A DNA stretch of 64,000 bases from Polytrichum commune (lineage: Eukaryota; Streptophyta; Polytrichopsida; Polytrichales; Polytrichaceae). A program made the position numbers and the translations under genes. The DNA lies in assembly GCA_950295325.1 (NCBI GenBank), contig OX485803.1:66789554-66853553 (forward strand), in the 5' to 3' direction. Positions 6,691 to 33,881 of the stretch are shown piece by piece (position 1 is the stretch's first letter; each line of letters opens with the position of its first letter). The notes beneath the pieces were generated by a model that saw only the letters and a list, made by a program, of their open reading frames with translations, did no database searches and was not told the origin of the DNA.

Positions 6691-6766
<76 letters not shown>
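6691..6766. repeat. (TTG)n followed by poly-T microsatellite
   Basis: About fifteen TTG repeats run into about thirty T. The tract and roughly 70 bp around it are missing at the colinear point near 51800 in unit 2. Long homopolymer frames here are artefacts, not genes. Confidence 0.9.
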
Positions 6767-6767
<1 letters not shown>

Positions 6768-7918: not shown

Positions 7919-7926
7919 TATATAAA
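7919..7926 (+). promoter_or_regulatory. Candidate TATA box for laccase copy 1
   Basis: TATATAAA lies about 1.26 kb upstream of the laccase ATG, inside the best-conserved non-coding block of the duplication (about 7680-9186). If used, the 5' leader would be long and probably spliced; a possible donor GTAAGC lies near 8239. The distance makes this tentative. Confidence 0.35.
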
Positions 7927-9186
7927 GTTCATGTTGGCACTCGCTTGAGGAAATTCAAGGGCCCCGAAGCTTGTGTTGAGGTCGAGAGTTTTGAGGTCGG
8001 GTTGAGGATCACTAGGGAGTCCGAGCTGGTAGGAGGTGTAACATCTGAAATTCCATGCGTGAGAGAGTTACCAAGTTTTGTGCTGCTTCAAATCTGCATC
8101 TGTAACAATATATGTCAGCTCACAAGAGGTCTCAGCTGAATCTGAAGCTGAATTTGAGCTAGTTTACATATTACATTGAAAACGACTGATGTGAATGAGT
8201 GTCCTCAGAATTTTCGCCTGCAGTGTTTCCCTGATTCTGGTAAGCTCAATCTGGTGTTGCAAGAAAGTTCTAGGCATTCATGAAGTTTCTTTTGAATTTA
8301 GGGTGAAGTTTGTGACACAGAAATTAGATTGAGATCTGGGAGGCAACAATGTTGCAGTATTTATTCAGATGGTTGATTATTAATGCCTGCAAATTTAATT
8401 CTGGAGCTGAATAATAACATTATATGGTTACCATCAGTATTTCTCCTGCAACATTGCACACCAAGAACAGGCTATTTTTCCTCGTCGCAGTTACAGAGTG
8501 GTGATGATTGAATCAATGGCAACAAAACTCTATTCTCTGTGGATATCAGTTATAGTCTGGGTCATGCATCAATCACAGTTATACTCCAGGGATCCATTAG
8601 TTAGTAGAATTTCAATTGAATTTTGTGTCATCCTCAGCCTAGCTAGCTGTGAGTAAATGAATTTGAAGCGTGTGAATCAAATCTGTTAGAGGACTCTGCT
8701 CTTTGAGCCGAATATAGGCTTGTGGATTAATCTTCACTACTTTATTTTAAGTTCCATGAAGCTCAATCTCAGGCACGGAGTACTCTCTTGCCAGTAAAAG
8801 TTTCTAGAATGTTTGGAAGTTCTAGATTAGATGTGAATCTAATTTCTTGAAACTAAAAATCATCAAGAGTGGCATTCAGATTCAGCAGCACCAAAAATTT
8901 AGTGTTTACAAGATATCAAAAGTCATCATTCATTCACTGGCCTCATCAACATCTACAAAAGAAAGAAGTCTTCATTTAGCACTGTCTAGAAAAAAAGTCT
9001 TCACTTTTTCCTAACTGAGTCACCTTGAATGTGTTTAACCTGTCCATTGAACTCAGCTGAGGATCATGCTCTTTTGAAAAAGAGCTCCAGAGGAGAATAA
9101 AGAGCAGTTTGAGCGTTACATCTAGAGAATTGCTGACCCATGAGCATTGAAGAGAAACTGAACAAAGTTTGAAGGAGTCATTTGTC

Positions 9187-12100
9187 ATGGGTAGAGGAGC
9201 TGGCACAGCTATGGTTGCATCCATTCTTGCGACCTTCTTGTTCATTTTCATTTCACTAATTCCGCAACCGGCAGCAGCAACAAAGCACCACCGCTCCAAA
9301 AAGCACCATCTGCACTGGACGGTAATTAGACTTTCATTAATTTTTTAGATTTAAGTTATTTTTCCAGCCTTTCAATCTAAGTACATTATCAACAATCATC
9401 TTGTCTCTGGGCAGTGGTGCCTTCCGGAACATCCTGGTGGGGTGGAATTTTTGTGACGATTCTATAATTCAATATTGAGGCCTGATGACTACTTGTCATC
9501 GTGAAAATTTGGAGTACCATTATTATAGTGCTGTCTGGGTCGCCACATTGATGTTGAGAGCTAATTCCATGTTTGATTGAACATGGTCTTGACCAATGTG
9601 GATACGACACGTGGCAAAAACCTTCCATAAAACAATTATGTTGTGGTGAACCAGAGACCACCTTATCATGTGTATATATACAGGGGGTCGCTTACATGTG
9701 CTTTGTATTAATGAATGAAAATTATAATTGTACAGGTGGAGACCAAAAATGTGACTCGAGATTGCGAAACTGTGGGCATTGCGATTGTAAATGGGCAGTT
9801 CCCAGGCCCTTCTGTACACGTCAACGAAGGAGACACTCTCATAGTTAATGTGACAAGCAAAGTGGACACTGACGTCACTATACACTGGTGAGTGTGTTGT
9901 AGCCAAATTATGTCATCTATCAGAAATTTCTATTTAGAAGAATTTTGTATTTAAATCATATTGCAAATTATATACGACTTATGGCCAGAGAATTCACTGG
10001 AAGGAAGAAAAAATTCTGCCGGAATGATTTGATATAACATGCAGCTAGAAGAAGGGATTTTAGGACTTCTAGGAGTACAAAAGTTTACCTGCACCCACTC
10101 TTGAGTTGTCTTTGGAGAATGTAAGGTGCTATTATGCGACAAAGTCTTCCATAGTACGGCACACGCTACTTGTGACTAGAGTGTTTTTATATTTAAATTT
10201 GGGCGAGATAATCAAGGCACCACGAGGGATGTCCTTGCGTGAGGTGTCAGAAATATTAATGGATAGTCGTCAATATCCTGGAACGAACATTTTGTTTGAT
10301 CACCAACCACAAGAAAAACTGCCTGCTGACCTGAAATATGCTGTTTCTGAAACGAATGATTGCAGCGACCTATATAAACACAGTGCCACTAAGATATGCG
10401 GCCCTCTTGTGGGCACTTCCCGTGCCCGGGAAGTTTTAGTCATAGTCGGTCAAGATCCTAGTGATTCTAAATCCAACCGGTTACATGCTGACATCTTCCG
10501 GTTCTGCTATATTCATTTGAGGTATAGTCTATATATTCCTCTAAAATGATCAGTAATTCTTCTGAAGTCGAAACTTCAACCGGTTATTTCTCAAACTCAA
10601 GTGGTTCATTTGTAACTAGCCGCTGGTTCTCCCTGAGCCCTGGTACTTCCAACTCCATAGACATATTTAACCATTGGGTCAGCTTGAAAATTCTGTCATC
10701 CGGTTAGCAATTGCAAATAAGGAAGGTTGTCATTTCGTGTTTCACAATCGGAATAAGAACGGGTGAAAAATCTATCATAAGTTCACAATGGATATTTTCT
10801 TTGTCTTTAAACGATCACATAGGTCTTCATAATTGTGTTAGCTATTGAACCTGTAATGGTGTTTATGATTCGTTTCCACTATCCAATCTCATCATAACAC
10901 ATGTCTTTTAAATATCCGGTCTTAACGAGAAGTGTTGCTATGAACTACTGAAATATAAGTCATGTCCAATTAAAGTGTAGATAACTAATGAGAGGAGAAT
11001 GGATGATGAACCGTGCAAGCGGCGAGTCAACTACCTACTCGAGCCGGTTATCGGTCATAATTGATTAGCTCATGGATAGAATCTTGGAGTCCTGAATGAT
11101 ATCACGCCTCCACAGATGAAGCTTTGTGACGAGTCATCATAGCCTTCTTCTCTTGGACGAGTGATCGGTTATGAGGAGTGACCAGTGACCACATAAGGCC
11201 CACATACCTTCCTGCCAGTGCGTCTGTACAGATCTGTACTTGAGAACCACTTCTTGGAATGGTGAGATGTGGAGCCTTCAGAATCTTTCACACTTTCATG
11301 GGGTCTACGAATATTTTTGAATTGCAAGTACTTGCAAGTTTCTCGAAGTGGCGAATTTGGCTTTGGAGACTCTCACACTTCTAAGTCCGTCAGGCCTCAG
11401 TAACTAGGAATATTTGTGAGTGCATGCAGGCATGGAATTAAGCAGATGCTTACGAATTGGGCGGACGGACCCACGCACATAACTCAATGTCCATTGAGCT
11501 GCGGGGAGTCGTACACATATGAGTTTACTGTGGCCAACCAAAGCGGCACGTACTTCTGGCATGCACATGCTCATTGGTTGCGCGCGACTGTCTATGGTGC
11601 CTTCATTGTCCACTCCAAAGCCACCCCCCCTTATTCTAAACCCACTGCGGAAAGGTCCATTCTTTTTGGTAAGTACCCTCTCACTAACCTCCACCACTCG
11701 GGAACAAAATTGATCAAAGTGCTTCCTTATCATCTTTTTTAATTAGCTTGGTCAAAGTAAAAGGTTAAAGTAGTGCAGTACTACTTAAGAGATGCCATTC
11801 ATTTGAATGGGAAACTGCAGCCATACTAGCAGCCTCGATCCACCAAATGTTATCATGGCTCCCATCAACGCATATAAGATAGCCTTGGTGCAAAGGGCAG
11901 CTTAAACGGAGCTTGGTCTTAACCCTTATCCATAGGAACTCCGAGGTTAAGCCACCTAAGGTCCAAATAGTACTCGGATGGGTGACTTGCCCAACATTTG
12001 AAACTCTTGTGTACCCTACCACCTAGGGTCCACTCGATCATAGTGGGAGTATGAGGGTCAACTGGATGTGTTCAACCACCCACATGGGGGGTTTACGGGC

Positions 12101-15100
12101 TTGTCCTTGGCGAGGGGGGTAGGTGCATGCCAACTTGTTTGCACATGCTCAAAGTGTTCACATTTGAAAGGTATTAATAGTCTTTATGGTCTTCTTATAT
12201 TTGCAATGCTCATTTTGGGGTTACATATTGATCACTACCAACATATGAGTCCTAGAGAGTTGTCTTACGTTGGTGAAAGAACAATGTTGAAATTCACCAT
12301 TGTGCTAGAATTGCAGATTCTCCAATGACAGAGGTCAATTGTCCAGGACCCACATGCTTGTTGTAGATTTAGACCAAGTGCTTGAAGATGAAGCAACACC
12401 AATTGGTGGCAAAATTGGAGTCGTCTTTCTTTCATTTTTAGAGTTTGATGCATGCACGTCTTTTCCAAAAGATTTGAATTCTATAGCTAAGTTTGCAGAC
12501 ACCAGACGAACACACATGACCACAGTTGTTTTAGTCTACTTCTAGAAACTGATATTGGTGAATCTTGTTTCTTTGCAGGAGAATGGTACCCTAAAGATCC
12601 AAATGTAGTGGAATCAAATGCCCTAGCAGGACATGCTGCAAACTTCCAAGTGTACACATCATACACCCTCAATGGGTGGCCTGGACCTTTGAACAATTGC
12701 TCTAATGGTAAATTAAATTCATCCTGAAAGAATCTGATCAATTTTCTCCGACTATTCACAATGCCTTCATCATTATTCGCCCAGAAGATCATGTTACGCA
12801 AGAAGCACGACTTTACTCATAAACGAATCAACACCTACCAATTACATGTATCAATGTCAGTGTTCAAGTTAACATTTCACCCAGTCCACTATAAAAGTGC
12901 CTTCAATACAGAATTTTCTTGAACATATAATTATAAGCTAGCAGTTATACAGCATTGCATTTCAGTGTCTTACTTCTTGAGAGAAGTTAGTAATTTGTCA
13001 ATATAGAATGCCCATTGTTTGGTGGGTGTATTCAACACACTTAATCCTAGACTGTTTGTGGTAATTCTTTTGCTGCTGCAATTAATCAATCAATCTATTG
13101 ATTTGAGTAATTGGTGCACAGGTTATGCGAAGCTGAAGTTTGTTGCAGGGAAGACATATTTGCTGCGACTTGTTAATGCGGCACTCAATAATCACCACTT
13201 TTTCATGATAGCAAACCACACGATGACAGTTGTTGCAGCCGATGGGGAATATGTGAAACCATTTACAGTTACAGTGGCATTGCTCTCGCCTGGACAGACT
13301 ACGGATGTCCTGGTTACAGCTGACCAACCAAAAGGTAATTTAGGACACATTGGAGTTTAATATCCTCCATTTCAACAAGACTTTGTTTTGGAAGTTGGTC
13401 TCCTATGATATTTAATTGGTTTTTCTGCATAGAACATCAATAATTTTATTAGAGTCAACATTCAATTCAACAGGACTTTTTGCTGGGCATTGGTCTGCTC
13501 TAATTTTCCATTCGTTGTTTTGCATAGAACATCAATAAAAAAAAACAAAAAAGTATGTTTGTGGTGTAATATGTTTGGAGATAGTGTTTGAATTCTGAAT
13601 GAAGAGAGAAACTTTTACTTATTTTCCAGGTTCATTGAGGGTCAAACTAGTTTTAGCACCTCTTGACATGTCAAAATGAGTTGGACCTCCAATGAACCAT
13701 TGAACCAATGTAGAATGTTCTTCGTTCAAACCTCCACACTACCTTCAAAAATGTACGAAAAACTTACCAAACAAAAAACTTGGTGTTGTTTATTTATTAT
13801 AATCAACTCGTGACCAAAATCCCCATGGTCAATTAAAAGATAACTCTACTATGTTTACCAAATGTCATGCTAAATTCATCAAATCTAGTCCTATGTAAGA
13901 AGAAAGCACCGTAAACACCATGTGGAAATTTTCATGAAAAAATAAGTATCGCGGGTTGAACCAGACACAACTCTATGGGTACCAGGTCCTTATGCAGGCA
14001 AAGTTGTTTCCTGGAATTAGTGGGTGGCAAGCCTAAGCTTGTGGTCAAGAGAACATAAGTATTTTTTACAAAGAGACTAAGGTATAGCATGCTATAATCA
14101 TTACCCTACCCTTACCAAGAATCTAATATCTTACACCATACTTAGATATTGATTTTGAGAATGTTCAACACCTTAACATTAAGCTCTCGGGATGATTTTG
14201 GGTCGTCTACAAATAACACTCTGAATCTTTGTGATTTTTGCACATGAAATTCAAACAAGAAATATTACCCTAGACCTAAATTGAATTCATTCCTTGCATT
14301 CCATTTAAAAATAAATAAAATCTAATAACAGTAGCAGCTACCTATACTCAATGCTTCTTAGAGTGATGCTTTTAACACCCGTCACAAAGATTAAATTGGA
14401 TCATTGTCACTGGTTCTTTGCCACTACAAGCAATTTTTAGGTATCCAACGACCCATAATCCTTGTAGTTACCGTATATTTTACCTTAGCGTACCTATCTG
14501 AGTAGAAAATTTTGGAAGATTATGGAGACAAGTTTGTGTGCACGGGAGTCATTGAAATTGCTTTAAATGTTGGCTTCACCAGTCACATTCTTATGGTGTC
14601 TTGAACTTTTTCTTTCAATGTAGGCAAATATTACTTCGGAATAAGCGAATGGCGACCGTTGTCATTAGCCACGGATACTTCACCTTCAACACCCTCGATT
14701 GGAATTCTTGAGTATAGCGGTTGCCCCTCCTCTTCATCAGCAGCGGCGAAACCCTCTATAAATATGCCAACATTTCCTCCGCTTAATGACTCAACATTGG
14801 CACACAACTTCTCAAACAGTCTCTTTGGGTTGATCAATTCCAACCTTCCACGCACCACGGACCGTAGCTTTGTTTTCGCGGCGGCGGTTGCGAATGTTGT
14901 GTGCACCGCGGCCGAAAATTGCACGACGGGGACCAAAATTGCAACCACCCTCAACAATGTGACCTTCGACACCCCGACCAACAGCTCGATTTTGGAGGCC
15001 TACTACTACAAGACGAAAGGCGTGTACACGACGGACTTCCCTCCGAACCCGCCGGAGGTTCTCAACTTCACATCGAGCTCCACGGTCCTGCAGTACAACT

Positions 15101-15724
15101 TGACGTCGCACCGGGGAGCGAAAACACTGACGTTGAAGTATAACCAGACCGTGCAAATTATCCTGCAAGATGTCGACGTGTATCTTCTGGACTACCACCC
15201 GTTCCACTTGCACGGACACAATTTCTACGTGATTGGCTCCGGGTTCGGGAACTACAATGCCACCAGCGACCCGAAGAACTTCAACTTGGTGGATCCGCCG
15301 ATCCGCAACACCGTGGGGCTGCTGGAGGGCGGATGGGTTGCCATTCGTTTCTTAGCCAACAATCCAGGTGAGTCCTAGCATCCTTCAGGTCTTGTCAAGT
15401 AATGATGCTCCCAAGAAAAGATGGAATAGTTGGCATGCGATATCCGTTCATCACCTTCTACCCATGTCCACGTGGGCATGGGGGTTGCAAAGTTGATTGA
15501 TAAACTGAAGGCACAACTCATACCAAAATGAAAATATTTTCAATGTTTTTCTTACAGAAGTGTGTTAATCATCTTTGGTGACATAACAAAATATTGGTTC
15601 ATTGATAGAAGCATTAGAGCAACCCCTATGGTCATTAGAAAAGGAACCTATCATATTCGGTTTTCAAATGTTTTTTGGGCCAATATGACATGCTTGTTAT
15701 CTTTCACATAAATCATAAATCTTC

Positions 15725-15758
<34 letters not shown>

Positions 15759-16999
15759 CTTTAACTTTCAAATCTTGAGGGTGGGAAGGGGTGTAGAGTG
15801 TTGTCTCTTTCCTCCCCCCCCCCACCCCCCCAAAGAAATTAAAAAGAATCTAGAAAACCAATTATTGAGAGAAACATTTTCTAGTGACCATAGGACTTGT
15901 TAGATGATGGTGCTCATGGATTGATGATTTGTTATTTCACAAAGAGGAGAAACATGTCGGATCTTGAATATTGTGCATTGAGAAGGTCCATCCAATGATA
16001 GCATTCAAGTTTCTGATTTACAAATTAAGGGTTTTAACACTTTGAAATGTCTAGATATTTTTATAACTTATTAGAAGCAATTCTCTAAAGCATGGATCTA
16101 GTACATGCAAGTTCCTTTTCCTTGGAATATTTGGTTCTTTGTCCTAGAACCAAAGTCCCTACACTATTTGTGACTTTCAACCTAAATCTGCTCTGCAAGG
16201 ACCCTTCACAAAGTCTTAACTCATATAAGAATGAGAACAACTTGCAATGGCTGAACTGATATTATGATGTGTACTCTTAAAAGAAACTCTTCCATACTAC
16301 GAAAGCACTCCAAATTAAGATTTACTATTCTTAAAAATGTTTAGCAAATTTAGAGTCCGAACTAGGCTCTAAAGACAATTAAAGGTGCTATATAGGAATT
16401 ATTCGGTTACTTTTCTAAATTGGACATCTATATTTGGTTGGTGTGTGGTTAGACAAAGTTCGAGGAACAAAGATCATAAATGACACATAGTTCAAAGAGA
16501 TTGGTTTACGTCTTTAAATTTTCTCAACTATTCCACAATCAATAGTGAACACAATTGAGAGAATCCATGTATTAACCTACGGAATCAACAAACATGCACT
16601 TCCGATAACCATGAATCGTGGAACCTCCGATTTTCAATCTGGTTTTCGATGATGTTTCATCATAGTTTTGCTAATGCAACACAAATTTGACGGCGTAAAC
16701 CTGATGAATAAGAGAGTAGAGAACAAGAAAACCAAACCGTATAACACCCTCATGCCTTTGTTGCCATCCCAGGGAAGCAATCACTTAATTACACCAAAAT
16801 TCTCACACCAGTTTCTAATGTATGCACCTTTTTTTTTTTTGACTTGGCAGGAGTTTGGAACTTCCACTGCCACATTGAGAGGCACATGTCATGGGGCATG
16901 ATGATGGCCTTCATCACAGAAAATGGGGAGGGACCGACCGCAACATTGCCTGCCCCAAAACATCGCTTGCCACAATGCAAATATGACCCAAACCCCTGA
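9187..16999 (+). CDS. Laccase (multicopper oxidase), copy 1, seven exons, intact
   Basis: Secreted blue multicopper oxidase that oxidises phenols such as monolignols or flavonoids with reduction of O2 to water, in the apoplast. Exons read 9187-9321, 9736-9887, 11430-11668, 12579-12707, 13122-13334, 14624-15367 and 16851-16999; all introns are GT-AG. The joined frame is 1761 nt, 586 residues, usual for plant laccases. Residues 1 to about 31 form a signal peptide (MGRGAG start, hydrophobic core, PQPAAA end). All four copper motifs are present: HWHG at 95-98, WHAH at 139-142, HPFHLHGH at 481-488 and HCHIERH at 543-549. Cys544 is the T1 ligand and Met554 the axial residue, where most plant laccases have Leu. 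Many N-x-S/T glycosylation sites are visible. The first ATG after upstream stops is used; it starts the signal peptide and matches the start of copy 2. The substrate cannot be read from sequence. Confidence 0.96.
10421..10650 (+). mobile_element. Short insertion in laccase intron 2, dispersed AACCGGTT-rich repeat
   Basis: Unit 2 has the uninterrupted site at about 55200. In unit 1 the insert is bracketed by the direct repeat ACTTCC (10415-10420 and 10645-10650), which looks like a target-site duplication. The insert is related, in the opposite orientation, to 20885-21075. Both contain CAACCGGTT twice at similar spacing. I see no inverted repeats and no poly-A tail, so the class is unknown. 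Confidence 0.7.
11905..12020 (+). repeat. 5S rRNA-derived sequence in laccase intron 3, unit 1
   Basis: GGAACTCCGAGGTTAAGC (11935-11952) and AGTACTCGGATGGGTGAC (11969-11986) match the box A region and box C of the internal 5S rRNA promoter, at the spacing found in 5S genes. CTCTTGTGT follows as in the 5S 3' stem. The 5' stem is lost and the sequence lies in an intron, so this is a 5S pseudogene or a 5S-derived SINE. Confidence 0.7.
13371..13545. repeat. Imperfect ~100-bp tandem duplication in laccase intron 5, unit 1
   Basis: The segment from TTCAACAAGACTTTG to the TGCATAGAACATCAATAA block is followed by a diverged second copy ending in the same TGCATAGAACATCAATAA. Unit 2 has one copy (about 57886-57960). 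Confidence 0.6.
15729..15756. repeat. (GA)n microsatellite in laccase intron 6
   Basis: About fourteen GA repeats; unit 2 has a shorter, interrupted run near 60105. A poly-C tract follows at about 15812 in unit 1 and 60182 in unit 2. Confidence 0.9.
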
Positions 17000-17689
17000 A
17001 TGATAATTCACAGCACTGACCTCGAACTTCTTGCTAAAGATGGGATTGGCATTTGAGCATTTCTCATCTGATGTCAAGAGGTTGCCAATTTTGGTGTTCT
17101 TCGATTATTCTTTTATAAACACTTTGATTTGTTACAGAGAGGCTCAATTGCCTCTTCAATGATTTCAGTATCACTTTGAAACGAACTTGCGGACCATCTT
17201 TCACATAACTCCCCCCCTCTCCAAAAAAAAAGGGATTTGGTTTCGATTGAGTCTGTATATTATAAATTGGATTTGAGTCATTCTACTTGAAATTAACTTA
17301 ACCCTTTCAGATATTTCCTCCTGCCCACGGACTGTATTTGCTTTGAAAACTCTTCTCCATTTTGCATCCGCAGTTCAGTCTACTGTTGGAATATGAATTT
17401 TTTAGTCGCTTGAGTCAGAAAAATTCGAAGGGATATAGATTTAGGTGAGATTTTTGTCTTTTGGTCTTTAAATTGCAGTTTCCCTTTTGGTAGAAGCGAA
17501 CTCTTAACCCGTTAGGAGTTTGAAAGAGCAGTATGCATCCACTTCTGTCAAAAACCTCACTGTGTTGAAGATTTAATTCCTGTTGAACAACAGTGCAAAA
17601 ATCAACGGCCGAAACTGGAAAAGTAAGAAAACAAGAAATGTCATGGAGGAATCTGAGGGCAAGAGGGGGTTACCGCATAGGAGCTGCTT

Positions 17690-18179: not shown

Positions 18180-19535
18180 CACGGGGGGGTGACTATCGGA
18201 ATTTTAGAAACCACGTGAGATAAAAAATAGGGTCAATTTAATTCGTTGAGGGTAAAATTTAAAAATTCGTTAGATCTACCATAGCTTTGGAAATATGTCC
18301 CATACATGATTATATATAAAATAGGGCGGTGAATAATTCCTCCATTTTAGTAATCAGTAGAAAAAAAATAGGATTATAGATATTGGATCCCCCCAAATGT
18401 GTGTAGTAGAATCAATAGAATAATTATGGGTTTGACTACTTGGATGAAGAATTGTGTAAATTCTGTCCAAATTTGAATGAAAAGTGTTAGTATGGAGGGA
18501 AAATGTTGTGGATTTTTTTGGGGGAAGGAACATTGTGATTTCTCAACGGCCCTTGGGTTGGCTTAGGGTTTGGACAAGCATAGTGGCGTGAAGGCGGTGA
18601 AGCGTTTGGGTAGGAGGTCTTGCGTTGGTGAAGCGTGAAGGGATGAAGCAGTGAAGCAGTGAAGCGTGGCACAAAGGCGGTAGGTAAGACACATTTTTTG
18701 GAGCTTTCTTCGTTGCTCCATAGCATTCATAGCATTCACACAGGTGTTTCACAAGCGCCAAAGATTCGGCTTGCTCCTCTTGCGGTAAGAGTCAATTTCG
18801 AACTCCAATTTCTTGATTTTTCTTGATTGGAAGTTAAACCTCTCCAAAACATTTTGTCTTATCATGACATTGTAGAGGATATCGATATGTACCTTGACAT
18901 GTATTGGAGGGTGCATAGTTATATCCTAACCCTTCACATTGTAAATATTTGGTACAAGGTTGAATGTGTTTGTGAACACAATTAAAGTAAATGTTTTTAA
19001 TTTTTGTATTTGGTTTTTTCAATTGAATGCAATCTTTTGTTTTGGAGAAGATAATTATGCAAAATTTCATATCTTATGACAATTGATTATAATTCTTGTT
19101 TTGTTCTATCCGTGTTTACAACTTGTCTATGTTATCTTCATGTTCATTGGTAATCTTTTAACTAAACTCCAAGTGTTATTGGTTGTGTTTTGAATGGCAT
19201 TTTGAATGCTTTAGCATTGGTATAACTAATTGAAACCGATTAAATAAAAAGATGGATGGTGTGGAACGTTTGTTGCTCACATAGTTGATTTTGCAATGCT
19301 ATAGTATTCCGTTCACTATTTGGTACTTGTACGATTTATAAAAAAAATATGATGCCAAAAATTGGTCTCTCTAAAAAATTACAAATAAACATAGGGTGCT
19401 TAAAAATATGTCAAAGCAACTTTATATCTACAAATAGGGAGGGAAAAAATACCAAGAGGTGCATAAATACCCCCCCATTAAATACCCCATTATCGCACGT
19501 GGTTACAAACTGTAAGGGGGTGTGACCCCCCCGTG
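18180..19535 (+). mobile_element. hAT-like non-autonomous element A (CACGGGG family, 1.36 kb)
   Basis: Starts CACGGGGGGGTGAC and ends in the inverse of CACGGGGGGGTCAC; each end has AACCACGTG about 30 bp inside. It is an inverted copy of 31343-32687, which has a clear 8-bp target duplication. Here the flanking octamers differ (GTTGTAAA and GGAATCAC), so this copy may be rearranged. Only short frames without a transposase domain are present inside. Confidence 0.75.
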
Positions 19536-20884: not shown

Positions 20885-21075
20885 TCGGGGAGAACCGGCA
20901 GTTAGTTACAGATGAACCGGTTGAAGTTCAAGACTGCAGGAAAATTACCGATGATATTAGAGGAATTTATAGAATATATTCCGATTTAATAAAGGAAAAC
21001 CGGAGGATGTCAACATGTAACCGGTTGGACTTGCAAACACTAGGATTTCAACCGATTATGACCAAAATCTCCAGG
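20885..21075 (-). repeat. Second copy of the AACCGGTT-rich dispersed repeat
   Basis: Read on the minus strand, this block follows the 230-bp insert at 10421-10650 nearly end to end, including the TCCAACCGGTTACATG and CTTCAACCGGTT segments. It lies in non-coding spacer between the hAT-like element and the GH5 gene. Confidence 0.65.
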
Positions 21076-21085
21076 ATCACTGTGC

Positions 21086-22067
21086 TGAATTACCATAAAT
21101 TTGGAGTACATCATGGATGTGTTTTCTAAAGAATTCAAAAGCTTGGCAAAGTCTAGACTCTGGTGAAATATATTATATGGTTTTTTGTGGTCAAGATATG
21201 TGCTCGTGGATAATATTATGAAATATAATACTTGAACTCAGATTGTGCGCCATTATACTCATGAAAGTAGATACTAGAGCTGCTTATCCTGGGTTTAATG
21301 GGTGCTGAGTATGGCATCTGAAACTTACAGCAGGTACTCTTCGATAATCTTCACCTCCTTCGAATGTACCCAAATTCCATCCAATCGACGAGGTGGGTTA
21401 ATCCCTCCAACCATGTTGATTTGTATTTCTAAAAATCGATCAGCAGCCGTCCCAGGTGTATATCTCTACCTGAAATATATGCCTCCATGTGCACCGGCAC
21501 AGCCATTACTGAATCAAGTGGGAATTCATTTATTCTAGCTAAGTGCTTTGAAGAATGATCAGCTAAAAATCCATACTTTAAGACATGCAAATTGCAAGCA
21601 AACATTGAGTGACCTGAAATGACTCAAAACAGACTAGATCTCAATTCACTTTGGTACAGCGACCATGGAAATCATTCCATATCCATCAAGACAGTGATAT
21701 CTTTTGTGAGGACAAACTTATGAAACATTTCATTACTTATATGCATACAACTTTACAAGGTCGCCAGGACCGGAAAGAGAGAGCGAAGGAGAGAGAGGCT
21801 GCTCTCCCTCCAGGTGCACGAAGTTGTCAAGAATTTCCTTACAGCAGAAGACTAATTTCGTCGAGGTGCATATATGCTTCGACACATTTTGGTGTTGCAT
21901 AATGTTCCTTTTCTCATCCCGGATTCTGCAGTTTATTTAAGGTCAGTCATTACTGATGTGATCCGGCGAAAGTGCACAATGCAATGTGAGGGCTATGTTT
22001 TGCAATCTCTGATCAATTCGGTTAATTATCACAGGGTCGTGGCCATGTGCACATTCTTCACTGATCC
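21086..22067. other. Non-coding stretch downstream of the GH5 gene
   Basis: Lies 3' of the minus-strand GH5 gene and must contain its 3' untranslated region. Short frames on both strands (up to about 83 codons) show no domain. A minus-strand stretch near 21330-21430 reads as a protein-like GGINPPRRLDGIWVHSKE and ends in GTAAGT, possibly an orphan exon; support is weak. Confidence 0.3.
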
Positions 22068-23368
22068 TCAGATGATGGCCTGCTTCTTGTAGCAAAAAGA
22101 ATCTGTTTGATTGAGGAGCTCCAACTCGATCTTCAAGTTTTTGCAGACATCAGGATTATTAGCCTCGGTAGGATCGGTTCTTGGGATTACACCAGCTTCC
22201 ACGGCTTGGTTATACCCCCACCGCCAATCGTTCCGCCCACCGATCCAGTTCACTTTCCATGTCCAGAAGATCCATCCTTTCTGTTTCTCATAGCTATCCA
22301 TTTGAGCACCGAACCAGCTTCGGTACCAACTCACCGCGTCACCTTTGTTGATGTCAAAGTCATCTGAATTAGGGTATTCTGTCGCCAAGCTCCACTCTCC
22401 GACAATGATAGGCGAGTTTCCACCAACATCCTCAAAACAAGGGTGGAACAGGTAATCTCTCCGCGTGGGCGGGACAAAGCAGCTATGAGAGGGCTGACAA
22501 TCTCCATCGTAGGCCCGGTAGTTATGGTCATCGTAGAGTGCGAAGCTTAGGTCGACGTCCCCCAGGCCTTGGGTAGGGTTACCTCCACCCGCGTACCATC
22601 GGCCATCCATCATCTGAATGTGGAGTCGACTATCCGCAGACACTTTCAAGCCATCCTCCACAGCCCGGATGCGTTTCCACGCATTAGGGTAAAACTCATA
22701 AAACATGCTGTGCTTCTCGCCGTTTGTAAACGGCACAGGCTCGTCCACAATTTCGATGGCGCCAACGTTACCGAACGTGCTGTCTGTATGTCTGACGCTT
22801 GTGATCCACTCCAACCACTGGTATGCTCTCTCGTAGATTCCAGAGTCGAAGAACCCCACCCGCTTCACGGATTTCCTCGTAAACTGATGGTTAGGGCTCT
22901 GCCCTCCCGGTGCAGCATGTAACTCTAAGATGATGTACAAGCCCGCGGATGTAGTCATGCGGCAGACATTCTCGAGGTAAGGAAATTCACCTCGAGAGAA
23001 GAGCTCACCAGATTGGACAAGCTCGTCGTGGATCCAAACCCTAATGGGATCCGCACCGTGTTCAATCCATAGCTCTTGATCAGATTGATATCCTCCTGAG
23101 TGATCCAGGATCCCCAGTGGCGCTGGAACGTTGCATCTGCAGCGGCTTGCCCCAGAGCTTGAGTACACTCAAACTCGTCGTTGCGATGCCTGCAACCCAT
23201 GCTGTTCCATTCGTCCCCCATCATCCATGGCTCCACGATGAAGAGTCCTCCCAAATTCACCCCCCGAATCTTACTTTCGTTCGGAAGCCATTCATTGGCA
23301 CTCGAAATGCTGCAACATAGTAGCAGGATTAGGCCCAAAGCAATCTGCAAATCGCCGCACTTGATCAT
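22068..23368 (-). CDS. Secreted GH5-family beta-glucanase, fungal-like, intronless, one-base frameshift
   Basis: Clan A glycoside hydrolase resembling fungal exo-beta-1,3/1,6-glucanases. The frame opens at 23368 with a signal peptide (residues 1-25, start MIKCGD), chosen because it follows 57 non-conserved in-frame residues and begins the hydrophobic leader. Family blocks follow: IRGVNLGG at 35-41, GLNTVRIPLGF at 101-111, LHAAPGG near 150, IEIVDEP at 205-211 (acid/base Glu210), DDHNY near 280, IIVGEWS at 321-327 (nucleophile Glu325) and GWIFWTWK near 365. The residue before the acid/base Glu is Asp, where GH5 enzymes almost always have Asn. After residue 111 the frame must shift by one missing base near 23036-23040 to continue; both parts then total 433 residues, the usual family length. 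The frameshift is either an assembly error in a short homopolymer or a disabling mutation. No introns are seen, unlike the neighbouring laccases. The closest relatives I recall are ascomycete proteins, so transfer from a fungus is inferred. Confidence 0.85.
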
Positions 23369-24620
23369 CACTGAATCCTCAATCACCCTCATTCCTGGAG
23401 CTGCTTTGAAATTCTCTGCAGCTTGATCATGTGCTATTCTGAAGATCTGCTCGAGCATGGGTGAGTTTGTGGATGGATCAGTCTCCATATTCATGCCATG
23501 ATGTATGCTGTGACTTTGCTGTGGGCCACATGCAATCACTGCAAGGTATTTGTTGCGTCACCGGCACAGGGATGAAGTAAGCGGTACCAAAAGAGCCCTA
23601 AAGACCCACAATCTCGGAGCCTGCGACCTTGCCTTTGAAGATCTACAAAGCAGATGCTAACTTCGAGGCCCGTTTGTGGCTTCATGAGTGGGGACGATCT
23701 AAGGGTCGCTTCACACACGAGACTGAGGGCCCGCGACCATTGCACTTCAAGCACTCTCATGGGTGGAAAAGGTGGAGCCAGTCCAAGTTCGCTTCGCACT
23801 ACGCCTGACGGACCAAACGAAGTGAATGCAAGATGGATGTAAGGTCTACATGGATTTCTACATGGCATCAATTGGATCATGTTTTCATGGTTACATGGTT
23901 ACTTGGATTATTTGTAAGAACCATCTCTTGGAGGTAGGCCTAACACAAAACCGGGAGACCATTGCAATCTGGAACCTCACAATCGTTGATTTATTATATT
24001 TTATCATGTGTGAGGACCCTGTATGAATAGAAATTCATTGAAATAGCTTTTGGTTGAGGGCATGGTCACATATGACTTCACACTACACTTGAGGACCCGT
24101 GACCACGCTACATGATTTTGGAAATGTCTTGGGATGGCCTTTGGACACTTCTTTTGGACTCTCACAAATTACAACTCTTAGCTCGTGTGTGAAGGGGCAC
24201 CAAGAGCCTTGAAATTCCGTCACTGTTGTGTAGAATATGGGATTGAGTAGATGTTGTCACTACACCATTTATGGTATTTAGTATCACATGCGTAATAGTG
24301 TCATTGACCCTATTTTGAGGTGAATGCTAGGTTATATTAATGATCAACAACTTCACCATAATTTTAGTGTCATCTCATGACACTTGGGGTTCAAGTGCGC
24401 TTACTAATAACTTGGCACATTAAGTATGTTCAAAGTGTTATCAGGTGTGTCACACAATGGTCTATGAGATGACTAAAGTATACACAAATGGCACTTGGCA
24501 TTAGTATGCTCAATAACATCTTCCCCTTTCATACTAAAACATAGAACTATCATCTCAAATATCTCAATGTGCTAAGCTAAATGTCATAATATAAATTTGT
24601 TTGAATTTAAAACGTGATTT
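23369..24620. other. Non-coding stretch upstream of the GH5 gene
   Basis: Contains the presumed GH5 promoter (minus strand) at its left end and otherwise short frames without recognisable domains. A partly repeated phrase, GAGGCCCGT / GAGGGCCCGCGACC / GAGGACCCGTGACC, occurs at about 23665, 23725 and 24091 and may be an old dispersed repeat. Confidence 0.3.
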
Positions 24621-27600
24621 ATGTTGTCGAATACTATCACATTGGCAATTAGTAGACATGTCATTGCGTGTGATGGAATTGAACAAAATCGTAAGCGAAA
24701 TTGTAACTTAGAAGTTGGGTCACCTTTGTTTTGTGAGACGATTCCTTCGGTGCTCTTAATTGGTGAGAACCTCAAGGCTTATAAGGTTCCAGAGAGTGGT
24801 CAGGGCCCGGGTGAGGGGCTTGAGAGTTGTAAGGTTGCATTGTGTAGTGACGTGCCCATGAGTGCTAGGATTTATGTCAATGTTGAAGGTTTACAAGAAG
24901 GCTTACTCACAAAAACTACCAAGTTAGAAGCACCTGAAGGTCTTGGTAGCATATCAACACTTGAACCAAATAGGCATGTTAAAGAGGTTGAGCGATATAA
25001 GAATTTGTGTGAGAATTTGATGGTAATCCAAGCAGAGTTTCCAATTGACACTCATGGAATTTTCAGCATTCAATCTCTTTCGGGGATTTTCAAGGTTCAT
25101 TGTGAAACTTGTGATATGGCATATGCAATTTCAACACCTAATTACAACCTTCAAAACTTCAAGCAACAACATTTGAAGAGGAAGAAACATGGAGATACAG
25201 TATTGAAGAGACAGTCCAACAATCGCGAAGCACAACTATTGCACGTGAAATTTGACCATGATTTGGAGGTCAAATTGAGAATATAATGTTTAACAAAAAA
25301 AAAATCATTTATATTGCTCTATAATGTCCAAACAGCCTATTCAACTTTTGCCAATAAAAGTCGAATTCCTGATTAAGAGGTTATTGCATTTTGTAATTCC
25401 AAATAGTAAGTGACAATAAATACCATAATTGGTGTACTTTCCTATTTTTTATCTGTCTGTATAATTACATCCATGGCAAAATGCGCCAGGTCAGGATATG
25501 TCCAATGTTGTTGGTTTCAACCCTGGCCACAATATGTATATAAACCAATGGTTTATCACAATAGTCTATGCATGAGTCTGGTACTATAAGTCTGAGATAC
25601 CAAGTTTGTGTATCATCGACTGCTGCATAACATTTCTGATCCATTGGTATGTATATCTCGTTCATGCATGTTGTCTTATTATTTGTTCTAACTCGGTATG
25701 TTTCAGATGTAGATTGTGTGAAGCGAACTGATCAGTGTAATTATGAGTTGGGACCGTGCAGTAAAACAAAAATTGCTACTCGATTGTCGATTTCTGTGTA
25801 ATATGTATAACCATGCTCGCCCAGAATTTCTTTCTCTGGTCAACAATATGTAACGTACATATTGAGATCTATGTCTTCATTCTTCGACATTCTTATGATC
25901 AATGATCAACACGTTTTTTGCAGGTGAAATTTGACCTAGATTCGGAGGTCAAATATCGAGCATGGATATTTGAAATGAAGTCGCATGGAGCTGTGTATGT
26001 TGATGCCAACACATGGGCATGCACAAAATGTGATTACAAGGCTGGGTTTGTGTCAAGAAACAACATTAAAGTGCATATGCAAAGCATGCAACATCTTGCT
26101 CGTGTTACAAAATTAAACAATGGGCTTAAATTGGAAGGTGGACAAACGACCATACTTCCAAGTTTTGCAAAGACAATCTCAGCTGGGCGAGCAGAGTATC
26201 CTCTAGGCTACCAAGTCCAAATTGATGATATTGGAATTGATGATATCAAAGTTTATGTAGCAACTCATCTTTGTCATGGCTTCTATGATGACTTTCTTAC
26301 CGTCTCTGAAGTGTAGGTTTGCATACGGTCTTTGAAGTCAGATCTTCATCATGGTCTTGAATATTATGCTGTGCCACAATATAGATTTCAGAAGTTCAAT
26401 GACGAAGGAGAAATCACTTTCAATTGGATATTTCAAAAACATTACGCTATATGATATACACGGGTTTTAAGTGTACTGTATGCTCCTTAATTCCTAAAAT
26501 GGAAGATTTTCGGAAGAGGGTGTTCAGGGAAACTCAAGCAATTGTGAAGAGGGACAAAAGAGTGCTTGAACCAGGGTTGAATGTGGAGTATCTACAAGCA
26601 AAGGAGCTTAGAGAAGCATCAAGGGAGCTCATGCAACGGAATGAATTGTTAGCTTCTGAGCTCTTCATTGTAAACAAGAAACTTGTAAATTCTTCATTAT
26701 CAAAATCCTATCTCAGCAATAAATTGAAGAATGTAATCTTGGAGCAGAAGTTGTCGGAGGTAGCTGATTTTTTGAAAACGAGCTTATGAGAGGCGCTTTT
26801 TCCGGTAGATCGACACTACTGAATTTTCTTATAGATACTGGGAAAGAATTTGTTGTCTGTCACGAAATGTGGAGGAAATGGGCAAGGGAAACAATATACA
26901 GCAAATACGAAGTTGTTATTTGAAATGATTTTGAAAGTTGGGGGTCCTTTGGCTCACAACTTTGTGAGCATTAATTTTCTTGGGCCGGTCCAGAATACCA
27001 CCTTGAAGGTTTCAGGAAGACGTCTTTTCATTTTAGAGGCTTTATTGATGAAGGTGGATTTCAGTATATGGCTACTGTCCTCCAGAAACACAAAGAGCGT
27101 TTAGGAATAGTTGGTGTAGTTCCTGTAGAATGTAGTGAAGATGAAACAAGTTGTATTGAACTTGCTACTTGGAATCGGAGAACAAACGAAGTGGATGGGT
27201 TTTGTGGCACATTAGGTGCTGAATATAAATGTGTTTCACCTTGTGTGATAAAGGCTGATTGTATCGACACTCTTCAACTAGCATTCAAAAATCTTGATAT
27301 TGCAAGTATGGTCAGACTTTTGTCTGTGAATATTTTGGTTAAAGGATTTCCAAAACTAGTGTATGCATTGCTGCCTACCTGCAATAAATTTGATGCAACC
27401 GAGGTTCAAAGGCAGTGGGTCTTGATTCACGTTTTTCACAACAAATTTTTGAAAACAGTGGTGGGTCCTTTGATTAGCCATGGGAGTGATAGTGATGCAA
27501 GAAGAAGATCATTTTTGCTGAGAAGTATTGCAAAGGGTACGTTTGGACTTACATCTCCAAGTTTTATTGTTAAGGCGCCAATTATAAATGGTTTGCCCGG

Positions 27601-29380
27601 CCTGATGAACCAAGATCCAGTTCATGTTGCAAAGAAAATGCGAAATCCTTTGTTGAGTGCAAAGAGGGACATCTTTTAGGAAAAAGCTCGTGTTGTATTA
27701 AATCACGTGGCACTGGTGATGGTGATCTTTTCCAAAGATGAGCATGGATGACTTGAAGAAGATGTAAACGTCAAAGACAAACAAAATTTTCCGGTTGTTC
27801 AACGATTGGCATCACCATTTGTAAGAAGGTGTCTTACTTTATTTATTGAAGGGGTTACAAATAATAATGGTAGATTCTACAAAGAAGATGGTAGAAGAAC
27901 AGTTCTCCATTTGGAATTGATATGGGCATATTTACAAATATTCTTTGGTCGTGATACTTTAGGCCATGGACTTAGTCTAGCTGAGAATTGGTTCACAAAA
28001 CAAAGTGAACAAGATTTATTGATATACTCTCATTTTGTTGTTTTATTCATTATGACAATGCGTGATCACTTTGTGCATCTTCCCGTATCTTTGGATATGA
28101 GTGGATCAGATTGTTGTGAAGATATTTGTAGCTTTCTTGGACAGGAAGTGCACAACAAAAAGAATTTTTCATTTGGAGAGGCTTTAGAGAGGATGGGACA
28201 TATTTGCAGGACATGAGAGATTAAAGTTGACAAGGAGAGTCCCATTTTTGTTTCACCTCACAGGAAAAAAAAAATCTTTGGTAGAGTTTAGCAACTAATG
28301 AACACACAACTTTAGCAAATTTAGAAGATTATTCTAGTGTAGAAGACACAAAGATGGAAAGTCTTTGGTTGGATGGTCTGCAATATGCTCGAATGAAACC
28401 TGTGAACGTGGGTATGCTTAATGTATTGGAACAGACAGAGAATTAGATTTCTCCACGGCCCAATTCAATCGATGCAAGCTTTCGGGGACAATGACAATCT
28501 AAAAAGTCTCCTTTGATTGTTGGTGTTGAATCTCCAAGTGAGATTTCAACCATAGTGCATTTAGCTGTGTTGGATGCAAAGCTAGGAACTCAATTTGATG
28601 GAAGCGAGTATTAGAGAAGATGTGCAAGTTGAAGTTGATGTTTAAAGCAAAGTTGAATCAACCATTGAGGTTCCAGGAAAGGGAAGTGTGCACAAGATGA
28701 GGATTATTACAGAGCTAAACTTAATACCTAACAAATTGCCACTTGATAGGCTTTGGAGAGTACAAATGAAGCAAGGGTCAGTGCATATTGCAGGCACTTT
28801 ATATGGCCATGAGAATGATGAAGTTGGCTTATTTGATGATATTGGAATCTGCATTGTACACAATCACGTGCCTCAATGCTTTATTGCTCGAATTCAACGA
28901 ATTTACAAAGAGTTGGACAATGGAAGTAGAGTGGAATATCAACGGCCCGTCAACATTGGTGCTTCATGTGACAAGAGTGTACATGTGATGTTGAAGTATT
29001 ACAAGGTTACATCGGGATTGATGTTGGAGTATGGTGGCTTTGAGAAAAATGGTGAAGCTGATCCTTGAGCATTTATTGTGTCATTGCTCCTGTTACTTTG
29101 ATTTACAATGCAATGAGTCAGTTGTATGAATTACAAGATGCAGATAAATTTGCTATAGATAACTATATTAGAATTGAGATGCTTAGATCAAAGTCTATTG
29201 GAATTGAGATTCTTAAGTCCAAGTCTGTTGGACGAATAAACGTGATGCTTTGAAAGCTCAATTGGCACCACAAGCATCTGTAGGCATTGCAACAATAGAT
29301 GAATCTAGCTCAGTAAAGATAATGACTACCACTAGAAGTGGTCGGATTGCCAAGAGAAGTATACAAATTTTATAAATTAT
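24621..29380 (+). pseudogene. Decayed zinc-finger transposase-like gene
   Basis: A broken coding region of a DNA-transposon-like protein. In order: a frame at 24621-25286; a C2H2 finger at 25918-26316 (CTKCDYKAGF then HMQSMQH); a coiled coil at 26500-26789 rich in L/E/K; HNFVSINFLGP at 26850-27000; a long core at 27068-27679 with CSEDETSC, KGFPKLVYALLPTCNKFD and DPVHVAKKMRNPLL; then 27806-28216 with SGSDCCEDICSFLGQ; and a 28688-29068 segment ending IARIQRI..EYQRPVNI. The DPVHxxKKxRN motif resembles the D-x-x-H..RN pattern in P/Kolobok-type RNase H-like transposases; this is analogy from memory, not a search. In-frame stops lie at 27677-27679 and 27749-27751, and the frame changes near 27000. 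It is therefore dead, with the plant-typical order still readable. Confidence 0.65.
25240..25960 (+). repeat. 35-bp direct repeat bracketing about 640 bp inside the decayed transposase
   Basis: GTGAAATTTGACCATGATTT followed by GGAGGTCAAAT at about 25245 recurs with few changes at about 25922, encoding VKFDxDxEVK both times. The first copy runs into a stop and the second resumes the protein. This may be an insertion with local duplication, or an intron flanked by duplicated exon edges. Confidence 0.5.
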
Positions 29381-29389
29381 TCAAATAAT

Positions 29390-30110
29390 GAATCCAAATT
29401 ATTTGGAAAATAATCTAGATTATATGTATGATTATGTGTACATAATCTATGCCTTTGTGAAAATTTTGGACGAGCCCCTTGTAATTATTTGCATTAGTTG
29501 TCACCATGGGCTCGAGGCTTCTAGCTCAAGCGGCTAAGGGAAAATATCTACTTGGCCCCAACCCTTCTAGAAAGACAAAAGGATACTTGACGGTGGGGTA
29601 GGGGCCCTGCCCAAAGTCCTAGAGGCTTACATGGGTGAGGCGGCTTAGCCGACCGACCCCACCCGAAGGATACTTGGCAATTTGCTCCGGGTTGTTGTAG
29701 TGTTGTTTTGGCAACATAATGATCAACTCAAGAGTGGACATCCATGAATGAAAGCCCACATTAACCATTGGCTACCTACTAAGGGGAGAGTCTTGAATGC
29801 ATGTATAGGAGGGTTTGGTTACCAAGCCATGAGCCTGGAGGTCCGCGGTATTGGGAGCTAACCATACATGTGCGTGGGATGTGCAGGTTAGCACTCATGG
29901 CACTTGCTAGAGTTGGAAAACGGTCAAGCTAAGTTAAGGAAAACTAGCAAAGGTCGCGACATCCCATGCTTTTTTTGATGGTTGTCAATTGACACCCCTT
30001 TATGAGGCAGTATTTCAAGGGAAGGATGTTTGTATATCTTCATTCCCAAAACCACTTGGAGAACCCATTTTTGCTAAACCCTTGCCTCTAACTCTGCATG
30101 TACAATTTTA
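29390..30110. other. Non-coding stretch between two decayed transposases
   Basis: No gene. TAGCTCAAGCGGCTAAGG near 29520 resembles a tRNA box A, and the region around it is GC-richer than its surroundings, as in tRNA-derived SINEs. No matching box B (GGTTCGANNCC) is found at the right distance. Confidence 0.3.
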
Positions 30111-30111
30111 A

Positions 30112-31342
30112 AATTGTGCTAAAAATAACAAATATCGATATATGATTTGTTTTTGGTCGTTGCTCTTCGCAAAAGGCATTTTCAAAATGTTGTTTGTGTT
30201 TTTCTTTATCATTATGGGGCACACGCACGACGACATTAATGCGTCATTTGGCCGTTGGAGCATGAAGTTGCATAAAGAGGATTTTCCCACCATACCACTT
30301 CTCATGAAATTATAAATAAATTTGGATAATGCATCGGTGATCCTGCACATGATTGAGGAAATACCGAATTTCAAGGCCTTCATCAAGCCATACATGTTGA
30401 AGGGAGTGGACCGTTTGGTTGCACATACCAAAGAACAACAATTTTGCTTCTATATGGGGGATGATGGTGTCCTAACATGCAATTCAAGCTTTTGTGCACA
30501 TATCTTAATTGGGGGCCAGAGGATGGTATACTCGTGTGGCGTCAAGACAAGGATGAGAAATGCATGCTCCTAGTTGGGGATCTGAAGCTTTGCAAACCCA
30601 ACCCATGAGGAATGGGCCGGAACTCATCAAAGGTATATCCGGATTCATTGAATATTGGAAAGAATTGTTTGAAGAATACATCACCAGACGTGTTTGAGAT
30701 ACTCATGAATCATTGATTGCGTATTGGGATGACATTCGCTTGGCCTTGTTGACACTTGGTATCAAGATCCGTACGACTTTTATACAAGAATATTGGCCAC
30801 AAAATCGATGGGTTGTTGTGGGGTCTGATGTCATATTCTTCAGTAATGGAGATGTCTGTGAGGAGTTCGCAATGGACGAACATTATATTGACCCTGCGCA
30901 CAATCATCTAGCTTCATCGTTTTATGTGGTTGTTGATTGCCATGAAGGTTATATGGTCCTTATACATGCAAGAAATGAGGAGCACCTCAAGCCAATTTGG
31001 TTGGTGAAAGCATTGTCTTCATCCAATTTTGTTTGAACTAGCCCCAACTTTCGTTAAATTGAAGTGGAATATTGCCGTCCAAGCACCAAAGACCAAAACT
31101 TGCTCCACACCTATTTAGGTTGACACCAAAAAATGTTTCAAATGGACAATGGACTCAACATACGGATCGGTTTGGATAAACACAAGTACCATATTTTGTG
31201 TTTGGAAGCCGCGCAAAGATTTCAAATCGGAAATAATGACCATCCCCCAAAAACATACAAATTTTGCCAAAGACAGCTTGGCACGTATTGTAGCTGCAGA
31301 AAATGATGCCAAGAATGGGTATGAAATGGAAGATGGAGATGG
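30112..31342 (+). pseudogene. Decayed C-terminal half of a DUF7869-like transposase
   Basis: From about 30112 the plus strand reads YMICFWSLLFAKGIF, then GHTHDDINASFGRWSMKL, the GHTH(E/D)DID box that marks the RNase H-like DUF7869 domain of plant and animal transposon proteins. An in-frame TAA follows at 30313-30315, then IPNFKAFIKPYMLKGVDRLV. After a frameshift near 30500 comes WGPEDGILVWRQDKDEK. The next frame (about 30610-31036) has IAYWDDIRLALLTLGIK and CHEGYMVLIHARNEEHLKP. The last (31149-31342) has DSTYGSVWINTS and DSLARIVAAENDAKNG. At least one stop and several frameshifts make it non-functional; the N-terminal half is missing. The hAT-like element B interrupts its final codons. Confidence 0.65.
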
Positions 31343-32687
31343 CACGGGGGGATCACACCCTCTTACATTTTGTAACCACGTGCGATAATGGGGTATTTAA
31401 TGGGGGGGTATTTGTACACCTCTCGGTATTTTTTCCCTCCCTATTTGTAGATATAAAGTTGCTTTAACATATTTTTAAGCACCCTATGTTTATTTGTAAT
31501 TTTTTGGAGAGACCAATTTTTAGCATCATATTTTTTTTATAAATTGTGCAGATACCAAATAATGAACAGAATACTATAGCATTGCAAAATCGACTATGTG
31601 AGCAACAAACGTTCCATACCATCCATCTTGTCATTTAATCGGTTTCAATTAGTTATACCAATGCTAAAGCATTCAAAGTACCATTCAAAACACAATCAAT
31701 AACAATTGGAGTTTAGTTAAAAGATTACCAATGAACATGGAGATGACAAAATGTACAAGCTAACATAGACAAGTTATAAACACGGATAGAACAAAACAAG
31801 AAATATAATCAATTGTCATAAGACATGAAAATTTTGCATAATTATCTACTCCAAAACAAAAGATTGCATTCAATTGAAAAAACTAAATACACAAATTGAA
31901 AACATTTACTTTAATTGTGTTCATAAACACATTCAACCTTGTACCAAATATTTACAATGTGAAGGGTTAGGATATAACTATGTACCCTCCAATACATGTT
32001 AAGGTACATATCAATATCCTCTCTTATGTCATGATAAGACAAAAAATTTGGAGAGGTTTAACACCAATGATGACAAAGAACTAAAACTAATTGTTGGCAT
32101 GAGGCGGACATACCTCACGAGAGCGGAGCAAGCCGAATCTTTGGCGCTTGTGAAACACCTTGTGTGAATGCTATAAATGCTATGGAACAAAGAAGAAAGC
32201 TCCAAAAAATATGTCTTACCTACCGCCTTTGTGCCACGCTTCACCAATGCAAGACCTCCTACCCAAACGCTTCACCACCTTCACACCACTATGCTTGTCC
32301 AAATCCTAAGCAAACCCAAGCGTTGAGAAGTCACAACATTCCTTCCCCCAAAAACATCCACAACGTTTCCCTCCAAACTAACGCGTTTCATTCAAATTTG
32401 GACAGAATTACACAATTCTTCATCCAAGTAGTCTAACCCATAATTATTCTATTGATTCTACTACACACATTTGGGGGGATCCAATATCTATAATCCTATT
32501 TTTCTTCTACTGATTACTAAAATGGAGGAATTATTCACCGCCTTATTTTACATATAAACATGTAGGGGACATATTTCCAAAGCTATGGTAGATCTAATGA
32601 ATGTATAAATTTTACCCTCAACGAATTAAATTGACCCTATTTTTTATCTCACGTGGTTTCTAAAATTCCGATAGTCACCTCCCCGTG
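31343..32687 (-). mobile_element. hAT-like non-autonomous element B (CACGGGG family, 1.35 kb), nested
   Basis: Bounded by CACGGGGG and CCCCGTG and flanked on both sides by the 8-bp direct repeat GGAGATGG (31335-31342, 32688-32695), the target-duplication length of hAT transposons. The empty site survives in the related fragment at 20216-20223 on the minus strand, where GGAGATGG continues straight into GGAAACATAATG. The insertion split the last codons of the decayed transposase at 30112-31342. No transposase is seen inside. Confidence 0.88.
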
Positions 32688-33130: not shown

Positions 33131-33394
33131 TGTCATTTTGAAGATCATACAACATAAATATTTACATGGGTATAAAAAATATTAGTCACATACACAGTTG
33201 ACAAGATGTATGTCATCGATCATAGGCCGAAAATACGAGAAGAATATGACTTGGGTTATACAAACGGCTGTTTGTATACCTCCCTACACATGTTTCAGGA
33301 GGATATATTTACGAACATCCGTTCGTATGTCCCAAGCCGTATTGTTTATGTCAACTAAAACATAGATCATAACAATTGAGGTATTTACGGATGT

Positions 33395-33805
33395 CACGGG
33401 GAGGTCACTCCATTGTCAAGTTGAAAACCACGTGCGAACAAAGTTTGCTACCCCTATATTATATGCCATAGATAATTTTAAAAACTATGATATTTTTTCT
33501 ATATATACATATCCATTGATAATATCTTTTTTGTATTTTTTTGAAATTTTTAGTCATCTCCATTTTTTCTAGTAATTTGTTTAGTTCAATTCTGCGTCAT
33601 TCTAGTTAGAAACGGTATATTTTCTAGGAAAAACAAATTATCAATTTTGGTTATCAATTTTTACTATGTAATAGATACCATGTATATGTACTCATAAATT
33701 TTTTTTGATAAAATTTTGACCCATTTTGTTAATGCAACTTAGAAAAAGTAGATTTTTTTTGTTCACACGTGGTTTTCAACTTGACAATGGAGTGACCTCC
33801 CCGTG
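33395..33805. mobile_element. hAT-like MITE (CACGGGG family, 411 bp)
   Basis: Near-perfect terminal inverted repeats of about 48 bp begin CACGGGGAGGTCACTCC and include AACCACGTG. The flanks ACGGATGT and ACCGATGT form an 8-bp target duplication with one mismatch. End sequence and inner box match the 1.35-kb elements at 18180 and 31343, so one transposase probably moved all three. The inside is non-coding and AT-rich. Confidence 0.88.
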
Positions 33806-33881
33806 ACCGATGTACGATCGTAAAACGCTTGTAAAACATGCAGAGCAAAGCTCTTGCCATTTTTACATGTTGGCACGAGTG

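Follow-up and report, generated by a model that had tools for sequence, protein, structure and literature searches.

Fungal-type glucanase genes have already been described from the genomes of two grasses. The beta-1,6-glucanase-like genes LpBGNL of Lolium perenne (PMC5567365) and AsBGNL of Agrostis stolonifera (PMC8432771) are both reported to come from fungi of the Epichloe lineage. LpBGNL is described as lying on a chromosome beside transposon-related sequence, as having one intron, placed as in the fungal genes, and as 72-82% like fungal proteins; the role suggested for it is against fungi or in symbiosis (PMC5567365). For AsBGNL an intron at the fungal position was inferred by PCR, and its DNA is given as 93% like that of Epichloe (PMC8432771).

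About 20 well-supported fungus-to-plant transfers are counted in a review (PMC12448838), 59 genes from fungi are reported from a gymnosperm genome (PMC12122422), and 14 further transferred genes are likewise reported from a gymnosperm genome (PMC10006428). The Cycas and Ceratopteris genome papers name other transferred genes (PMC9023351, PMC9477723), and the words 'glucanase' and 'GH5' are absent from their main texts. Among the matches listed by a literature search, no title or opening of an abstract describes the transfer of a GH5 glucanase into a non-grass plant; the gene may already have been noticed among the sets of PMC12122422 and PMC10006428.

Four subfamilies of GH5 are relevant here. 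As listed in PMC3526467, GH5_14 is restricted to plants and carries a fascin-like module after beta-strand 1, GH5_9 and GH5_15 contain fungal sequences only, and GH5_11 is found in both plants and fungi.

The locus described here is in the window, by which we mean the whole 64-kb stretch of DNA that was analysed. It has in common with LpBGNL and AsBGNL that a fungal-type glucanase gene is found in a plant genome. It differs from them in having no intron, where the grass genes have one (that of AsBGNL by PCR inference), and in its distance from fungi: the best fungal match compared is 28-33% identical, whereas the grass genes are far closer (72-82%, and 93% for the DNA). This kind of transfer is already published for grasses, and the window gene is possibly an independent case. 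We interpret it as a resident of a plant chromosome that encodes a secreted GH5 glucanase of fungal type; the gene was most likely acquired horizontally from a fungus long ago and is now frameshifted. We assign this reading a probability of roughly 0.55.

The gene and its reading frame

The features of the gene are as follows.

22068-23368, minus strand: GH5 gene, with ATG at 23368 and stop at 22070-22068, 433 codons
23036-23368, minus strand: N-terminal part of 111 codons, with the leader and the motifs RGVNLGG and GLNTVRIP; its own PDB matches go down to E 1.9e-16
23294-23368, minus strand: signal-peptide-like hydrophobic leader, first 25 codons, judged by eye from the translation
23034-23042, minus strand: site of the one-nucleotide frameshift that joins the N-terminal and C-terminal parts, located by comparing frames
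22068-23036, minus strand: C-terminal part of 322 codons plus stop; its own PDB match has E 1.7e-12
22737-22745, minus strand: acid/base motif D209-E210-P211, compared with Asn-Glu-Pro in 31 of 32 relatives
22392-22400, minus strand: nucleophile motif G-E-W, Glu codon 22395-22397, located by alignment

An earlier note on this DNA had placed a GH5 gene without introns at 22068-23368. These limits hold: the gene fills the span on the minus strand, with its ATG and stop at the two ends, and no intron was found within the homologous span. The note gave no strand, however, and missed a one-nucleotide frameshift, which splits the gene into parts of 111 and 322 codons in different frames, with the junction near 23036. 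Homology is unbroken across this site when the read-through protein is used in a PDB sequence search. The frameshift is the sole frame lesion in 433 codons. At the local base composition, 322 codons would run free of stops by chance with a probability of 1.3e-7.

A single lesion over this length fits a frame that was maintained until recently. A frameshifted copy would yield a truncated protein. Barring a sequencing error at this site, the present copy is on this reasoning probably an inactive pseudogene. If there is such an error, the gene could be intact and working, whatever its origin, the error being one of base calling at a short single-base run. That there is only one frame lesion across 433 codons speaks for such an error, to which we give somewhat less than an even chance. 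Against it, the long laccase exon described below is open in both of its copies, so that frame errors are not common in the window, as judged from this small sample; and the gene is also unusual in another respect, its D-E-P motif.

The two catalytic glutamates (acid/base and nucleophile) are invariant in a 23-row alignment of the C-terminal part with 22 bacterial rows. The fungal rows have NEP at the acid/base position and GEWT, GEWS or GEF at the nucleophile. In the window protein the residue before the acid/base Glu is Asp (IEIVDEP), in contrast to the NEP of all three fungal relatives and of 28 of the 29 bacterial ones, the 29th (locus L037) being unreadable because its translation is broken. 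To our knowledge, Asn at this position is nearly universal in the clan to which GH5 belongs. The change to Asp is therefore likely to have reduced or abolished activity, even in a protein with its frame whole.

Family and relatives

The read-through protein matches PF00150 (cellulase, GH5) with E 3e-10 and 40.5 bits, against a curated cut-off of 23.5; neither of the two GH5 open reading frames taken alone gives a Pfam match at E 0.001, and the protein has no match in NCBIfam. As judged from its predicted protein, the gene is a member of GH5. The PDB search with the read-through protein returned 22 distinct sequences within E 0.1, the first 11 of which are named as glucan exo-1,3-beta-glucosidases, and none of the 22 is a plant enzyme by name. 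The top match is 8z2w (E 5.3e-31). Nine sequences of one exo-glucanase follow at E 4e-25 to 4.1e-24, which we take to be the Candida enzyme, and a further exo-glucanase at E 1.8e-15 is presumably yeast Exg1. Searched alone, the N-terminal and C-terminal parts both have the same exo-glucanase group at the top.

Identity to 8z2w is 28% over 88% of the query (BLASTP); in the alignment, each of the two fungal rows is 33% identical to the window protein across the parts that align. The motifs RGVNLGG, VRIP, LHxAPGxQ, E-P, GE(W/F) and W-K are common to the window protein and the fungal exo-glucanases. A predicted model of the C-terminal part alone, with 22 of the 37 bacterial loci described below in the folding alignment, has a mean pLDDT of 56.9, which is too low for the fold to be read. 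The earlier description of the protein as a fungal-type GH5 enzyme thus stands in so far as PF00150 identifies GH5 and the closest solved structures by E-value are fungal exo-glucanases; it is weakened by the bacterial relatives, which score nearly as well.

The subfamily can be narrowed further. About 60 residues separate the strand-1 and strand-2 motifs in the alignment, as in fungal enzymes. This spacing leaves no room for a fascin-like module, so that plant GH5_14 can be excluded: the GH5 family is common to the window protein and to rice OsGH5BG, but the OsGH5BG type has the module and the window protein does not. A provisional plant GH5_14 sequence scores 71 bits against the window protein.

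The window protein and the fungal GH5_9 enzymes (8z2w, Candida Exg and yeast Exg1) have the motif set in common, and neither has a fascin-like insert. They differ in that identity is only 28-33%, the branch of the window protein is long, and it has D-E-P where GH5_9 has N-E-P. Moreover, an NGFDN(G/S)G-like stretch after LHxAPGxQ, common to the fungal and most of the bacterial rows, is absent from the window protein, which is therefore no close kin of either GH5_9 or the bacterial rows.

The resemblance to GH5_15, the fungal endo-beta-1,6-glucanases of the ExgB/BGN16 type, is a lead from a provisional sequence of ExgB. Aspergillus ExgB, which we take to be an endo-1,6-glucanase, was in this provisional form 45% identical to the window protein and scored 332 bits, compared with 122 for the best database protein. 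If this resemblance is right, the protein would be an endo-beta-1,6-glucanase of the GH5_15 type, an identification that we treat as a lead only.

A single-query search of genome contigs and viral contigs found no relatives. A query built from a three-row alignment found 37 related loci in bacterial genomes and no viral locus. Searches of plasmids and phages gave 20 records at 22.6-32.0% identity and one record at 23.8%, respectively. The tree was built from the window protein, 8z2w, Candida Exg, yeast Exg1 and 29 of the 37 bacterial loci; the other eight (L013, L018, L020, L024, L025, L026, L030 and L033) were dropped as seemingly redundant, by judgement and with no computed cut-off. L037 was kept despite seven stops, and L023 and L031 have one stop each.

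In this unrooted tree the window protein and the three fungal (GH5_9) proteins are split from the 29 bacterial rows with support of 70/70. The branch of the window protein is 3.0-3.2 changes per column long, and no starred group contains it. The split is weak support for a grouping with fungi, which it neither shows nor rejects. Bit scores against the window protein are 122 for 8z2w, 113 for the best bacterial row, 99 for Candida Exg and 69 for yeast Exg1, the last two falling below several bacterial rows.

These scores bear on whether the donor was a bacterium rather than a fungus. The 37 bacterial loci, and a best score among the 29 in the tree (113 bits) close to the fungal 122, would be consistent with such a donor. 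Nevertheless, the window protein falls, weakly, with the fungal rows (70/70), and the closest lead, the provisional ExgB sequence, is fungal; we consider a bacterial donor improbable. The missing stretch after LHxAPGxQ does not argue against a bacterial donor, since the fungal rows have the stretch too.

Surroundings and composition

The following features flank the gene.

~9650-15378, plus strand: first laccase copy, made up of several exons that have been mapped in part; limits approximate
18180-19535, plus strand: copy 1 of a 1.35-kb element that has CACGGGG as its terminal inverted repeats
20915-21067, no strand assigned: 153-bp repeat, an 80% inverted match to 10434-10585 in the laccase region
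31343-32687, minus strand: 1.35-kb element, inverted copy 2, flanked by the 8-bp duplication CCATCTCC
~54430-59748, plus strand: laccase copy 2, limits approximate

The two laccases are part of a direct segmental duplication (1289-17185 and 47433-61557, with 87-96% identity by stretch), whose two segments have the GH5 gene in the interval that separates them. The laccases make it nearly certain that this is plant DNA; that the plant is a gymnosperm is a guess from the low GC. The laccase exon matches NCBIfam TIGR03389 with E 5.8e-66, below the whole-protein cut-off because only one exon was supplied, and PDB 6klg with E 8e-43. The expected last laccase exon is not cleanly readable in either copy (15360-15700 and 59730-60100), so the laccases may be incomplete.

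Pfam was run on 16 translated stretches: two from GH5, two from laccase, and 12 others, two of them overlapping; the window has 75 stop-to-stop open reading frames of at least 90 amino acids. The 12 others gave no Pfam match that exceeded a cut-off. Searches for tRNAs and with Rfam at its gathering threshold found nothing in the 64-kb window.

The gene had been described in the earlier note as lying between plant transposons. Repeat elements are indeed present on both sides, at 18.2-20.3 and 31.2-33.1 kb, but the region from 24.6 to 31.0 kb holds broken reading frames with no Pfam match above the cut-off, and the firm markers of the surrounding genome are the laccase copies. Our assignment of the 1.35-kb CACGGGG element as hAT-like is a guess. 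A 415-bp miniature element at 33393-33807 has 50-bp inverted ends of similar sequence. The broken reading frames run along the plus strand from 24618 to 31036, with no Pfam match above the cut-off, and are perhaps a single degenerate mobile element or an unknown gene; parts of them resemble what we take to be cnidarian mobile-element proteins.

The laccase copies and common repeats that flank the GH5 gene make a contaminant contig unlikely. An assembly chimera, or fungal contamination joined to a plant contig, would have to account for laccase segments 87-96% alike, and copies of the 1.35-kb element, on opposite sides of the gene, as well as for the 153-bp repeat, whose distance to the stop codon of the GH5 gene is 1.0 kb and which recurs in the laccase region. 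The 12 other translated stretches, with no Pfam match above the cut-off, also argue against it, and we give it little credence. As far as sequence can show, the gene is flanked to left and right by DNA of a single genome.

The gene has no convincing signs of origin as a retrocopy. No run of A or T of eight or more was found in 21301-24300, and the single exact direct match of at least 10 bases between the searched flanks is 11 bases long, at 21492 and 23559.

The high GC content of the gene had been offered as a sign of foreign DNA. The gene has a GC content of 51.5% and a GC3 of 61.2%, which is above its flanks, and the raised GC extends beyond the gene to ~23.8 kb. It is not, however, above the longest laccase exon (14605-15372), which has 51.8% and 65.6%, with 51.4% and 62.3% in the second copy. 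Two shorter laccase stretches have GC 50.8% and 41.5% with GC3 53.8% and 38.1%, respectively, and in our reading the 41.5% stretch includes intron sequence. Since the longest native exon has the same GC as the gene, the argument fails and we reject it; raw GC contrast is a poor marker of foreign origin. Relative codon use in the GH5 gene correlates poorly with that of the laccase exon (0.16 and 0.24 to the two copies). This fits a foreign gene, and is too little to weigh because the two laccase copies are in effect one reference gene.

Origin and significance

The closeness of GC and GC3 to the longest native exon is also what would be expected if the gene were not foreign at all, and had been inherited vertically as part of an old eukaryotic GH5 lineage, retained in this plant and poorly sampled elsewhere. 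GH5_11, which is listed for both plants and fungi (PMC3526467), is an example of such a lineage, and the tree is unable to place the window protein. We regard vertical inheritance as unlikely, given that the GH5 gene lacks introns where the adjoining laccase has several exons, and that the fascin-like module of GH5_14 is absent. The low score of the provisional GH5_14 sequence points the same way.

A fungal origin is thus the best reading, and is plausible but unproven. The proposal in the earlier note, of transfer from a fungus followed by fixation, remains plausible on the grounds that fungal exo-glucanases are the nearest solved enzymes, that the GH5_14 module is missing, and that the gene is embedded in its surroundings. 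Its GC argument is lost, and the frameshift makes the fixation of a working gene doubtful. The absence of an intron is weak evidence for transfer, as the transferred gene described from a grass still has one.

On this basis, the intact ancestor would have been secreted to the apoplast, where it may have acted on the walls of fungi, cutting their beta-glucan by double displacement as GH5 enzymes do. The substrate would be beta-1,6-glucan if the resemblance to GH5_15, as represented by the provisional ExgB sequence, is right. Like the role suggested for LpBGNL, that of the ancestor may have been defence or keeping symbiotic fungi in check.

A more specific version of the fungal reading is that a non-grass plant acquired, independently and long ago, a fungal gene of the endo-beta-1,6-glucanase type, in parallel with the Epichloe-to-grass transfers. 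The gene would have been under selection for a long time, and would now be decaying or, in view of D-E-P, have taken up a new non-hydrolytic role. We put this forward tentatively, as a possibility with the odds against it. If the fungal origin is confirmed, plants would have taken up GH5 genes for enzymes that cut fungal walls on more than one occasion, and such repeated capture would point to selection for using fungal wall enzymes against fungi.
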